This document shows, one piece after another, positions 4,205-8,554 of a DNA stretch of 36,946 nucleotides. The notes under the pieces are model-generated. The model saw only the letters and a program-made list of their open reading frames with translations. It did not search any database and was not told the origin of the DNA. Location: the NCBI GenBank assembly GCA_938015575.1, contig CALLPT010000150.1:1-36946 (forward strand), read 5' to 3'. The position numbers were made by a program, and so were the translations under genes. Source of the DNA: an uncultured Acidimicrobiales bacterium (GTDB lineage Bacteria > Actinomycetota > Acidimicrobiia > Acidimicrobiales > UBA10347). The first letter of the stretch is position 1, and every line of letters begins with the position of its first letter.

Positions 4205-5986
4205 TCACCATTCCGAACAGGTGCACTCCACCGTCTGATCGAGCGCCTGCCATTTGAACTTGACCGGCGCGCTGAGCGTTCCGCACCCGGTGCAGCTCAC
4301 CGCGAACCCGTCGCGCACGGTGACGACGACCACGGGTGACTCGCCCGTCGACAGCCGTTTCTTCTTGGGTTTGGGCTTGGCGAGCTCCGGGAGCGGCAGA
4401 CGTTCGACCTCGAGGTACGTGATCGGATCTTCGGGCTTTTCGGCAGGCGTGTCCGGGACCCGTTCGCTGATCCAGTCATGCAGCCACGTCTTGTTCGGCC
4501 ATTGCAGGTAATGGAGCCGTCCATACATGGCTTCGGTGCCGATGTCGCGTTCGAGGTCGGCGGCGACGTTGGCATCGCCGTCGTCGCTGTGAACGATGTC
4601 CCAGCGGTCGCTCTCGGTGCTCAGTATTCGCTTCGCGTTCACACGGATCGGGTCGCGGACTTCCGCGGGTCCGGACCAGTCCAGGAACTCAGCGACCTGG
4701 TCGAGTTCGGGCACACCGAAGATTCGGATCTTGTCACTGATGGCTTCGATCTCGTCGAGGAAACCGTCACGATCTTCGGTCGCGGTCGGATCTTCGAGCG
4801 TGTCGGCGGCGAAGAGGATGACGAAACGAGCACCGACGCCGGCTTCTTTTCGACGCAAGATGCGGCCCATGCGCTGGATCATCTGGCGGCGGGTCCGGCT
4901 GGCGCTGACGACGACGCCGAGGTTGGCGTTGGGGACATCGACGCCCTCGTCGAGAACTCGTGGTGCGGCGACCGCGTCGAGGTCGCCCGTGCGCAATCGT
5001 TCGAGGATGTCCTCGCGGGCCGAGCGGGGCGTGTCGCCGGTGATGATCTCGATGCTGAGCTCGGTGTCGAGTCGATTGATGGCGTGGTTGGCTGCCTTGA
5101 CCGTCTCGGTGAACACGAGCGAGCCGTTTGCCGTGGCGATCGTTGGGGCCAAGGTGGTCAGTGCCTTGTACTTGGCGGTGCTGTTCGCGACGATCTCGCG
5201 GCGCTTGCCGAGCGCATCGAGGTACTCGCGTGCGGCGCGCCCGTTGTCGCCTGCGTCTTGGTCGGCCAGATGCGCAACTGCGGACAGAAAGTCGGCAAAG
5301 TTCGTCGGCATCTTGGGGATGCTTCGCAGCACGCGGCGCGCGTCGACGAGCTGTTGCTCCGTCGCGACGTATTCGACTCGTTCGGCGCTATCGAGCGGCA
5401 CGCTCACAAAGGCCACTCGTGGTTGGGCACAGACGCCGTCGTCGATTGCGGCGGCGAAGTCATAGCGGAAACACACGCCGCCGAAATACGGAAGGATGAC
5501 CTTTTCGATCGCGTTGTCGCTTCGCTCGAGGGTCGCGGTGAGCCCCAAGCGCTCGCTGTACGCGCCGATCAGCGACTTGCGAAGCACGCCGCCGCCGAAG
5601 CCGTGGCACTCGTCGGCGACGAGCAGGCCTTGCTGGCCTTCGGGTGGAACCGGACGTTGGCTCGCTGCCGAGTGCCGGGTGGCCACCAGGATGTCGCAGG
5701 CGCCGGCCCGATCACGTTGGCTGTCACCGAGTCGACCGATTGTCAGATCGGGGAAGGCCGCGTTCAGGCGCTCGTACCACTGCGCAATGAGCACACGGGT
5801 CGGTACGACGACCATGACGAACAGGCCCCGGCGGTGCGCATCGGCAATGGCAGCAAGGGCCATGTCGGTTTTGCCGGAGCCGGTGACGGCTTCGACGACG
5901 CCTCGGCGGCCACAACCGAGCCACGCGGTGAGGGCGTCGAGCTGCCATGCATAGAGAAATCGATCTGGGCGGACGTCGGGGGTCAC
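4205..5986 (-). CDS. SF2 DNA/RNA helicase, XPB-like, with C-terminal zinc-binding cysteines
   Basis: This is an ATP-dependent superfamily 2 helicase of 593 residues. Motif I is VTGSGKTDMAL, Ia VVPTRVLIAQW, II ADECHGFG (a DECH rather than DEAD box), III LTATLER, IV SLVFTETV, V VDVPNANLGV and VI QMIQRMGRILRRK. The layout resembles XPB/Rad25-type and restriction-ResIII-type helicases. The extreme C-terminus has CTGC and CTC pairs that could bind a zinc ion. The GTG start at 5986 was chosen because GGAG lies 5 bases upstream; a TTG at 6022 would add 12 residues without a site. No nuclease or methylase is adjacent, so a defence role is not supported. DNA repair or RNA metabolism are both possible. 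Confidence 0.85.
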   Translation of the reverse strand: MTPDVRPDRFLYAWQLDALTAWLGCGRRGVVEAVTGSGKTDMALAAIADAHRRGLFVMVVVPTRVLIAQWYERLNAAFPDLTIGRLGDSQRDRAGACDILVATRHSAASQRPVPPEGQQGLLVADECHGFGGGVLRKSLIGAYSERLGLTATLERSDNAIEKVILPYFGGVCFRYDFAAAIDDGVCAQPRVAFVSVPLDSAERVEYVATEQQLVDARRVLRSIPKMPTNFADFLSAVAHLADQDAGDNGRAAREYLDALGKRREIVANSTAKYKALTTLAPTIATANGSLVFTETVKAANHAINRLDTELSIEIITGDTPRSAREDILERLRTGDLDAVAAPRVLDEGVDVPNANLGVVVSASRTRRQMIQRMGRILRRKEAGVGARFVILFAADTLEDPTATEDRDGFLDEIEAISDKIRIFGVPELDQVAEFLDWSGPAEVRDPIRVNAKRILSTESDRWDIVHSDDGDANVAADLERDIGTEAMYGRLHYLQWPNKTWLHDWISERVPDTPAEKPEDPITYLEVERLPLPELAKPKPKKKRLSTGESPVVVVTVRDGFAVSCTGCGTLSAPVKFKWQALDQTVECTCSEW

Positions 5987-6142
5987 GCAACTCCGATACT
6001 GGTTTGCCCGTGCGAAGGCCAAAAGGCCAAGGAGTCACGCTATCGGCCCGACATCATGGCTCCTTGGGTGGCGAGGCGATTGCGGCCACGAAGCCCACGA
6101 GGGTGCCTGTTCGCACGCGGGTCGGGCTTCTACGATCCAACG

Positions 6143-7261
6143 GTGCGTAAAGCTGCGGCGGCTGTCCTCTTGTGTTCGTTCATCGCCGTCGGATGTGCCG
6201 AGGCGTCGGCCCCCAACCTTGTCGCTGCACCGACCGGAGAGGTCGCGTCGACTGCGGCGCCCACGGCAACGGCCGTGCCTACACCCACTGCCACGCCGGT
6301 ACCGACCGCCACGCCGGTACCGACCGCCACGCCGGTGCCGACCGCCACGTCGGTGCCCACGGGAGCCGATGCAACCGAGCCGGCAACAGCATCGACTTCT
6401 GCTGCCGAACCGACGCCGACGGTTGTCGCCCGGGCGATTCGGTCCGAGACGGGTGTGATGCTGACGGTCACGACCGAGGGTCCGCCGTGGGAAGTCGTGA
6501 CTCCCTGCTTCAACACGACGACGATCGAGACAGGGTTAGCCCTCGCCGGCCCGGTCGATGTGCTCATCGATCCCGGCCACGGCGGCGAAGAATCCGGCGC
6601 CGTCGCCCCCAATGGTCTCCGAGAAGCCGATGTGAATCTGCTCGTCGCCGAAGCCCTCCGCAGTCGACTGCTCGACCAGGGCTACTCGGTCTTGATGACC
6701 CGCTACTCAGACCATCGCATGGCAATCCAAGCCAGGACTGCACTTGCGAGCGCGCTCGAGCCGCGTCTGTTCATCTCGATTCACCACAACGGCGGTTTTC
6801 CCGACCCCGTCGATCAGCCCGGCACCGAAGTCTTTGTCCAGTTCGGCGATCCCGAGAGCCGTCGACTCGGCGGGCTGCTGTGGGAGGAGATGCAGGACGA
6901 GTTCGCTGATCTCGACATTCCGTGGGTGGGCACCGACGCGCTCGGGGTGAGCTGGCGCCAGAACGAGTCGGGGACCGATCTCTATGGGATCCTTCGCCGT
7001 ACGCCCGAACTCGTCACCGTGCTCACCGAAGCGATGTACATGACGACCGAAGCCGAGGCGGCCTTCCTCGCAACCGACGAAGGCGTCGCGCGAGAAGCCG
7101 AGGCCCTGACCCGGGGGATCGTGCGCTGGTTCGATACCCAAGACCCCGGCAGCGGCCACATCGACGGCCTGATCTTTCGTGGGGACCTCGGTACCGGCGG
7201 CGGCACCGACGGCTGCGTGGACCCGATTTTGTCGATTTCGGCGCCGCGCGACGACGGCTAG
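6143..7261 (+). CDS. N-acetylmuramoyl-L-alanine amidase (Amidase_3), lipoprotein or secreted
   Basis: It should cleave the amide between MurNAc and the stem peptide in cell-wall turnover. The product is 372 residues. The GTG start gives a signal sequence (VRKAAAAVLLCSFIAVGC) with a lipobox-like AVGC, Cys18. A Thr/Pro linker of repeated PTATPV follows (about residues 30-75). The Amidase_3 domain (about 139-340) has zinc ligands in DPGHGG, in the Glu of LREADVN and in the His of ISIHHN, and the catalytic Glu in VLTEAMYM. There is no clear ribosome-binding site. It is divergent from the helicase and its TAG overlaps the end of the next minus-strand gene by 4 bases. Confidence 0.9.
   Translation: MRKAAAAVLLCSFIAVGCAEASAPNLVAAPTGEVASTAAPTATAVPTPTATPVPTATPVPTATPVPTATSVPTGADATEPATASTSAAEPTPTVVARAIRSETGVMLTVTTEGPPWEVVTPCFNTTTIETGLALAGPVDVLIDPGHGGEESGAVAPNGLREADVNLLVAEALRSRLLDQGYSVLMTRYSDHRMAIQARTALASALEPRLFISIHHNGGFPDPVDQPGTEVFVQFGDPESRRLGGLLWEEMQDEFADLDIPWVGTDALGVSWRQNESGTDLYGILRRTPELVTVLTEAMYMTTEAEAAFLATDEGVAREAEALTRGIVRWFDTQDPGSGHIDGLIFRGDLGTGGGTDGCVDPILSISAPRDDG
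6295..6360 (+). repeat. 18-bp tandem repeat in the amidase linker
   Basis: Three 18-bp units (6295-6312, 6313-6330, 6331-6348) differ from each other at no more than one base and are followed by a degenerate fourth. They encode PVPTAT units of the extracellular linker. The near-identity of the DNA, not just the protein, suggests recent slippage expansion. Confidence 0.9.
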
Positions 7262-7755
7262 CCGGTTGCCGGGGTTTGCTCGGCGAGGCGCCACAGCCCG
7301 CGTCCGAGCTTCTCGACCCGACCGGCGCGCTTCAGTCCCGACAGCGACAAGCTGACATCGTCGAGGGTGTCGTCTCGGCCACCGAGCGCGCACTGTTCAT
7401 GGATTGCGGACCGATCCATCGGCCCCGGGGCCTGACTCATGATTGTCGAGACGGCTTCGTTGCGGCTCATGGTCATCAGGTCGGTGACCGCTGGAGCAGA
7501 CGCCATCGCGATTCCGGGCGAGATCGGTACGACGCTGCCGTCGTTGATTCCGCCAAGCGCGGACACGGTGGCGCCACCCATTGCCGGCGTCAGACCACGT
7601 CGCTGGGCATAGGAACGCAAGCCGACCAGTTCGATCTCGATGCGCTTGGCGTCGTGTTCGAGGGTCGCCACGAGTTCACGGGCCATCCGCAACTCGTCAC
7701 GCGTCGTTGTCAGGTCCGCTTCGGCCTGCTCGATTGCGTCGGTGACGTTTTCCAC
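7258..7755 (-). CDS. Small coiled-coil / winged-helix-like protein, unknown function
   Basis: I do not recognise this 165-residue protein. Residues about 1-60 (VENVTDAIEQAEADLTTTRD onward) form a strongly charged predicted coiled coil. A Gly/Ala/Ser-rich middle follows. The last 70 residues (STIMSQAPGPMDRSAIHEQC through VSLSLSGLKRAGRVEKLGRG and LWRL) look like a winged helix-turn-helix. A DNA-binding or dimerising role is inference. The start is uncertain: GTG at 7755, or GTG at 7779 adding eight residues; neither has a good ribosome-binding site. An 18-bp palindrome lies 24 bases upstream of the chosen start. The stop overlaps the amidase stop in a shared CTAG. Confidence 0.65.
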   Translation of the reverse strand: MENVTDAIEQAEADLTTTRDELRMARELVATLEHDAKRIEIELVGLRSYAQRRGLTPAMGGATVSALGGINDGSVVPISPGIAMASAPAVTDLMTMSRNEAVSTIMSQAPGPMDRSAIHEQCALGGRDDTLDDVSLSLSGLKRAGRVEKLGRGLWRLAEQTPATG

Positions 7756-7778
7756 GGTGTGTGTCCGGTGTAGTGCCA

Positions 7779-7796
7779 CAAGTTGTAAGCAACTTG
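7779..7796. promoter_or_regulatory. 18-bp perfect palindrome, operator-like
   Basis: CAAGTTG-TAAG-CAACTTG is a perfect 7-bp inverted repeat with a 4-bp spacer, immediately upstream of the winged-helix-like gene. The ACTTG core recurs at 7801, 7817 and 7971, and in reverse at 7930. It looks like a transcription-factor operator, perhaps for autoregulation. This is inference from symmetry only. Confidence 0.5.
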
Positions 7797-7827
7797 CGAA
7801 CTTGGCGACATGGGCTACTTGCGAGTC

Positions 7828-8054
7828 CTAGCGTGTGCGCACGACGCGAGCTAGGTCGGTTGATCTGGAGGAGACTAGCACGACTAGTCATGACTAGCTA
7901 GCAAAAAAACTAGCTAGTGAACCAGCGGGCAAGTAGCAGGCCTGGCTCGCGGCTGCTAGTCGGGCGCGCAACTTGTGTGCCACACGCTGATTTCCGGCCA
8001 TTCGCGACGCCGTGCGTGGCCGGCCGTAGCAGCGCCTCAATCCAGGCCAACTAG
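7828..8054. repeat. CTAG-rich, repeat-rich non-coding region
   Basis: The 310-base gap between the gene at 7258-7755 and the Nudix gene has no convincing coding region. It holds ten CTAG tetramers, at 7828, 7851, 7875, 7884, 7894, 7898, 7910, 7914, 7956 and 8051; eight fall within 90 bases. At this base composition fewer than one would be expected by chance, and CTAG is normally avoided in bacteria. Three GACTAG units (7873, 7882, 7892) are spaced 9-10 bases apart, about one helical turn. Flanking 9-bp inverted repeats are nested around the cluster: 7777-7785 with 7969-7977, and 7814-7822 with 7929-7937. Confidence 0.85.
7893..7918. other. Perfect 9-bp hairpin with A-rich loop
   Basis: ACTAGCTAG (7893-7901), an eight-base loop C+7A, then CTAGCTAGT (7910-7918). 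It is a perfect stem but AT-rich for this genome and lacks a trailing T-run, so it is not a typical terminator. It could be a protein-binding cruciform or an RNA hairpin. Confidence 0.7.
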
Positions 8055-8065
8055 GGTCGGCGACC

Positions 8066-8554
8066 ATGTGGACGCTGAAACGCCCCGCCGCTCGCGTCGT
8101 GGTCCTTGACCGTGACAAGCGCATCTTCTTGATCAATGGTCGTGATCCTGCCGATGCGTCGAAGGAACCGTGGCTCGAGATCCCGGGCGGCGGTATCGAC
8201 CCGGGCGAGGACAGCGCGGTTGCTGTGGCCCGTGAGCTCTACGAAGAGACCGGAATCGAAGACGCGGAGATCGGCCCGGTGATCTGGGTGCAACACGTCG
8301 AGTTCGAATTCGGTGGCATCCACTTCGACAGCGACGAGAAGATCCACGTCGCTTGGTGCGATGGTGGCGAGTGGCGGCCGCGGCACCTCGAGTTTCTCGA
8401 AGCGCAGGCGTTCAGCGGTGCAGACTGGTGGTCGCTCGACGACCTGTTGGCGAGCGACAAGCCAGTTCTGCCGGTGCGTCTACGAGAATTCTTGCCGGAC
8501 ATCGTCGCGGGCAATCTTCCCGCTACCCCGATCGATATCGCCCCGGTTGAGTAA
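8066..8554 (+). CDS. Nudix hydrolase
   Basis: It hydrolyses a nucleoside diphosphate linked to another group; the substrate is not determinable. The 162-residue product has a complete Nudix box from G42 to I64 (GGIDPGEDSAVAVARELYEE then TGI), matching Gx5Ex7REUxEExGU, including the metal-binding REVxEE-type glutamates E57, E60 and E61. The N-terminal strand RVVVLDRDKRIFLIN is typical of stand-alone Nudix proteins. It starts just after the CTAG-rich region. Its end is convergent with the small membrane-protein gene, 57 bases away, with no obvious terminator between. Confidence 0.9.
   Translation: MWTLKRPAARVVVLDRDKRIFLINGRDPADASKEPWLEIPGGGIDPGEDSAVAVARELYEETGIEDAEIGPVIWVQHVEFEFGGIHFDSDEKIHVAWCDGGEWRPRHLEFLEAQAFSGADWWSLDDLLASDKPVLPVRLREFLPDIVAGNLPATPIDIAPVE

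Follow-up and report, generated by a model that had tools for sequence, protein, structure and literature searches.

A stretch of 36,946 nucleotides from an uncultured Acidimicrobiales bacterium (the window, meaning the whole stretch that was analysed) contains an intergenic segment in which the tetramer CTAG is crowded together, and the question is what this segment does. It is flanked by a minus-strand gene for a 165-aa protein (7258-7755) and a plus-strand gene for a Nudix hydrolase (8066-8554). The initial annotation of the window left four options open for it: a multi-site operator, a replication or segregation site, a recombinase attachment site or a structured RNA.

An array of CTAG and related sites between two genes

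CTAG starts at 7828, 7851, 7875, 7884, 7894, 7898, 7910, 7914, 7956 and 8051. As the initial annotation had reported, ten copies thus fall within 227 bp (7828-8054) and eight within 90 bp (7828-7917), and the word is indeed scarce elsewhere. While about 26 copies are expected from the dinucleotides of the whole window, 18 were counted, only eight of them in the remaining 36.7 kb, which is about 3-fold below expectation outside the cluster. Such a density is not ordinary, a point on which the annotation had called for a check: among 300 dinucleotide shuffles, the maximum was three CTAG per 90 bp and four per 227 bp, and three CTAG within 52 bp or less occur at just two places besides the array in the bacterium's own 4.2-Mb assembly (G000). 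Judged by these three-CTAG clusters, the array is the densest CTAG cluster found in its own genome. The GC content of the element is 56%, compared with 66% for the window.

The array extends from 7777 to 7977 and holds 15 CTWG sites, nine of which are CTAG and six CTTG/CAAG, and its core is kept in six genomes. The conserved core GACTAGCACGACTAGTCATGACTAGCTAGC (7873-7902, plus strand) carries the CTAG at 7875, 7884, 7894 and 7898; it shows 0-3 mismatches in four relatives and is diverged in a fifth, G001. The three GACTAG units that had been described at helical-turn spacing start at 7873, 7882 and 7892, in steps of 9 and 10 bp. An A-tract spacer (7903-7909) leads from the core to the next CTAG pair; it is AT-rich in all six genomes and T-rich on the given strand in G001. 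The spacer lies within the perfect AT-rich hairpin noted previously, ACTAGCTAG-CAAAAAAA-CTAGCTAGT, which we located at 7893-7918. When site positions are counted from the first core CTAG, the first CTAG of its 3' arm CTAGCTAGT (7910-7918) lies near +35 in five of the six genomes, and G001 has CTTG at +32 and CTAG at +36.

Two pairs of 9-bp inverted repeats are nested around the core with almost one centre, again as first described. The outer pair, centred on 7877, consists of CACAAGTTG (7777-7785, minus strand) and CAACTTGTG (7969-7977, plus strand), each a CTTG-type site, and is not retained as a pair in G005. The arms of the inner pair, GCTACTTGC (7814-7822, plus strand) and GCAAGTAGC (7929-7937, minus strand), are both ACTTGC sites centred on 7875.5, and this pair is also found in G005. 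A further inverted repeat, CCTAGC...GCTAGG (7827-7855), surrounds positions -47/-24, and five of six genomes have a CTAG at -24 or -25; a CTAG at about +81 (7956-7959) recurs within 4 bp in all six.

The cluster of ten has to be reduced by one, as the tenth CTAG, part of CTAGGGT (8051-8057, plus strand), lies outside the array. By analogy with other actinobacterial promoters, we take TAGGGT at 8052-8057 to be the -10 box of a leaderless Nudix transcript. Five genomes carry TAGGGT, TAGGGT, TAGCGT, TAGCCT and TACCGT some 8-9 nt ahead of the Nudix ATG. A box of the form TAnnnT is present in G004 as well, where the Nudix gene lies away from the array, and this retention, together with the position before the ATG, fits a -10 box of a leaderless transcript. 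The segment 8051-8065 is thus probably the leaderless promoter of the Nudix gene.

Conservation beside one gene and the repeated word

The annotation had also asked whether the repeats persist in near relatives next to the homologue of the 7258-7755 gene. They do: the array stands directly upstream of this minus-strand gene in all six sampled genomes of the genus (G000-G005), and the core GACTAGCACGACTAGTCNNGACTAGCTAGC is retained even where the adjacent proteins share just 35-37% identity, the extremes among the genus homologues. Searching with the core pattern recovered the same element in G002, G003, G004 and G005, as one copy per genome with 0-3 mismatches. In G001, a CTAG cluster lies directly upstream of the homologous gene with the core diverged and its first CTAG lost. 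Outside the genus, 391 genomes sampled from the order gave no core match with up to three mismatches allowed, nor was the core seen in viral contigs. The array thus occupies a conserved position upstream of a regulator-like gene, once per genome, as for a dedicated target.

The neighbour on the far side is less constant. In four of the six genomes (G000, G005, G003 and G001), the divergent Nudix gene directly adjoins the array, which separates it from the 7258-7755 gene. A P450-like gene stands between the Nudix gene and the array in G004, and a long helicase-like gene follows the array in G002, with no Nudix match within the 19.7 kb examined; both labels were read off the initial residues of the translations rather than obtained by library search. 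Since the array stays with the 7258-7755 gene when the far-side neighbour changes, gene order indicates that it belongs with this gene and not with the Nudix gene. On the near side of the locus, a gene for an XPB/Dnd-restriction-like helicase (4205-6022, minus strand) has similar counterparts of 593-632 aa on the same side in G005, G002, G003 and G004.

To define the repeated unit, we compared word counts over the six arrays. ACTAGC occurs 26 times against 2.8 expected and ACTTGC 13 times against 1.2, so a repeated ACTWGC motif is present above chance; GACTAG (22 against 1.5) and AACTTG (10 against 0.7) are enriched as well. Among the 25 CTTG-type sites of unambiguous orientation, A precedes in 17 and C follows in 17, and these flanks match those of the CTAG sites. 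Between species, CTAG, CTTG and CAAG replace each other at +39, +47 and +57, as is expected for protein sites and not for paired stems. The repeated unit therefore looks like ACTWGC rather than CTAG alone, and the CTAG words seem to be variants of a single word that a protein binds. Most species retain the core positions 0, 9, 19, 23 and 35, as well as the sites near -24 and +81. Sites outside the core show only modest positional coincidence between distant species (most P 0.03-0.9), and helical phasing over long range gives a weak signal, with a best period of 11.25-12 bp in each species.

A predicted coiled-coil/winged-helix protein and a proposed multi-site operator

The gene at 7258-7755 is both a candidate binder and a candidate target of the array. 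The model of its 165-aa product (pLDDT 78, pTM 0.44) consists of an N-terminal helix or coiled coil of about 50 residues (2-52), a linker (59-89) that is predicted to be disordered, and a C-terminal winged helix (96-160). About half of the invariant residues fall in the predicted recognition helix and wing (D..SL.L.GLKR.GR......G.W). Fold matches of the winged helix (Foldseek, VIA) include Fur/Zur, linker histone, Z-alpha and Rok and are all generic, and family libraries returned only a sub-threshold AbiEi-type match. Relatives with the same layout are sparse in the class and phylum, and the more remote ones in the phylum showed no such array upstream. Small proteins with a comparable, coiled-coil/winged-helix-like layout are scattered in actinobacteria under no named family (L035, L036, L037, L079-L081). 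A sigma-70 scan, which covers few promoter types, recognised no promoter for the 7258-7755 gene. Two other elements considered in the region were set aside: one weak minus-strand terminator-like site, whose T-tract switches strand in G001, and a leader peptide from the ATG at 7889, which is not conserved among relatives.

Of the four options, the multi-site operator is favoured because of the oriented ACTWGC repeats, the conservation by the same gene in all six genomes and the retention when the other neighbour changes, while a genus-wide structured RNA is unsupported and an attachment site unlikely. With a probability of roughly 0.6, we interpret the array as an operator on which the adjacent coiled-coil/winged-helix protein assembles to regulate its own gene and perhaps the Nudix gene too. 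The element would act as double-stranded DNA, with about 12-15 ACTWGC-like copies in both orientations, and would form the control region of the adjacent gene. Its conserved core has four CTAG, spaced by steps of 9, 10 and 4 bp, and leads into the AT-rich spacer and more sites. The winged helix would read ACTWGC and the N-terminal helix would join subunits, so that molecules bound in succession along the array (with 9-12 bp from site to site in the core) could assemble cooperatively into one nucleoprotein complex. This complex may repress or tune the promoter of the 7258-7755 gene in an autoregulatory manner, and where the Nudix gene stands opposite, its promoter could be controlled as well.

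The nearest functional likeness seems to be Rok of Bacillus subtilis, a xenogeneic silencer. Rok has an oligomerising N-terminal part and a linker before its winged helix, and such a layout of coiled coil, linker and winged helix fits the prediction for the 165-aa protein. The C-terminal winged helix of Rok prefers the words AACTA/TACTA and binds AACTT poorly, and Rok acts genome-wide on AT-rich regions in a host whose core genome is depleted of the preferred word (PMC6212790). Common to both cases are the C-terminal position of the winged helix, which is predicted here, and the depletion of the word in the host genome, and the words preferred by Rok resemble the ACTA with which ACTAGC begins. 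In contrast to the poor binding of AACTT by Rok, about a third of the array sites are of the CTTG type, and the structural match to Rok is one among many generic ones. We do not claim membership, because sequence homology was not found: a profile search of PDB sequences with the 165-aa protein gave no Rok at E<=1.

BldC of Streptomyces, a small winged-helix protein, binds cooperatively to a variable number of short repeats spaced by 9 bp at actinobacterial promoters (PMC5859096). It differs in that it has no coiled coil and recognises AATT-N4-C head to tail at many targets, whereas the present sites occur in both orientations in one array. The RdfS/Xis directionality factors are oligomeric winged-helix proteins with an N-terminal helix and bind their own promoter (PMC11963761), although RdfS has no consensus motif. 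BldC and RdfS together provide precedents for the assembly of winged-helix proteins on DNA of this sort. Operators that adjoin their regulator are familiar elements; the ACTWGC motif, the site density and the protein family appear to be undescribed. If the operator reading is right, an apparently uncharacterised actinobacterial protein family comes paired with a candidate word and a natural 12-15-site array, which makes its function directly testable. In addition, a word that the rest of the genome avoids is clustered and preserved at a single control region, and this pattern may serve to locate operators in lineages that are uncultured.

Competing explanations and other operator-like sites

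A structured RNA, either a leader or a small RNA with the CTAG words in its hairpins, is an unlikely reading, and one for which the folding data point in both directions. Folding energy is below that of dinucleotide shuffles in all six genomes (z -1.3 to -5.1), but most of this excess vanishes when the CTWG words are held fixed, with G002 retaining one strong extra hairpin. Five of the six pairs in the inverted repeat around -47/-24 have changed on both sides, and RNAalifold proposes 32 pairs, 13 of them with a both-side change, yet its covariation term is unfavourable (+0.86), and the two core hairpins show no compensatory change and are broken in G005, G004 or G001. Moreover, single-sequence folds differ for each species and each strand, the strand preference is not consistent, and no Rfam match reached the gathering score. 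Taken together, two fold nulls, pair counts and per-species pairing probabilities support no common fold for the RNA that the annotation had considered. We keep this reading as a rival because the compensatory-change test, with six sequences from four lineages, has low power. The 15-bp hairpin of G002, TAGCTCTTCATGGCT/AGCTATGAAGAGCTA (L013), which also counts in favour of an RNA, sits ahead of the core, at a distance of about 58 to 20 bp, and is far stronger than in other species.

It is likewise improbable that the array is a segregation, replication or chromosome-architecture site of iteron or centromere type, which the adjacent winged-helix protein would bind in the way TubR binds tubC. As with TubR-tubC and other arrays at centromeres, a gene for a protein of DNA-binding type adjoins a repeat array; here the protein has a long N-terminal helix, and the array of short repeats, present once per genome, has an AT-rich spacer. 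Unlike those systems, the locus has a chromosomal setting and no motor gene: the neighbours examined (amidase, XPB-like helicase, Nudix, membrane protein and others) include no motor NTPase, partner ATPase/GTPase or replication gene. In addition, gene order on the chromosome is conserved around the locus, nothing typical of a plasmid or phage was noted, and viral contigs lack the core.

We consider it similarly improbable that the array is an operator for another, unlinked regulator. Other genomic CTAG palindromes adjoin ArsR- and TetR-like genes, so several regulators use CTAG operators; however, the array follows the 7258-7755 gene and not the Nudix gene, and the searches revealed no further array of the sort that might be expected for an unlinked regulator. 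Somewhat more doubtful still is a genus-specific nucleoid or chromosome-architecture protein that nucleates on the single ACTWGC array and spreads along or bridges DNA, in a Rok-like or centromere-like manner without a known motor. If true, it would mean a dedicated chromosomal array for a genus-specific DNA-spreading or -bridging protein. A recombinase attachment site or mobile-element end is very unlikely: nested inverted repeats with many short sites do resemble attP arms, and a winged-helix protein that acts as an excision factor binds both attP and its own promoter (PMC11963761), but there is no integrase among the neighbours examined and no element near the array, which keeps the same place, with conserved gene order around it, as one copy in each of six genomes.

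Ordinary CTAG operators resemble the array proposed here as a multi-site operator in that CTAG is kept at operator-like sites of a CTAG-avoiding genome, but they are single palindromes as opposed to 12-15 sites over 200 bp. One such palindrome, CTAGAACGATCACTC...GAGTGATCGTTCTAG, precedes a TetR-like gene in both G000 (C69:3493-3533) and G005 (L070 near 1194; L069 near 1117) and is a probable TetR operator. Another site, TCTAGTTTGYACTAGA, conserved in G000 (C64:17188) and G005 (L071 near 1589; L068 near 1525), is flanked by an ArsR-like gene and a gene divergent from it and is a probable ArsR-type operator. A wider regulon drawn from other CTAG pairs of the own genome was rejected, as the two pairs examined adjoin these ArsR- and TetR-like genes, with orthologues in G005. 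Finally, CTAGAGTTAGCACTCTC-N-GAGAGTGCTAGC occurs at G001:C28:10729, G002:C3:197487 and G005:C444:7508 and resembles the CIRCE heat-shock operator (HrcA).
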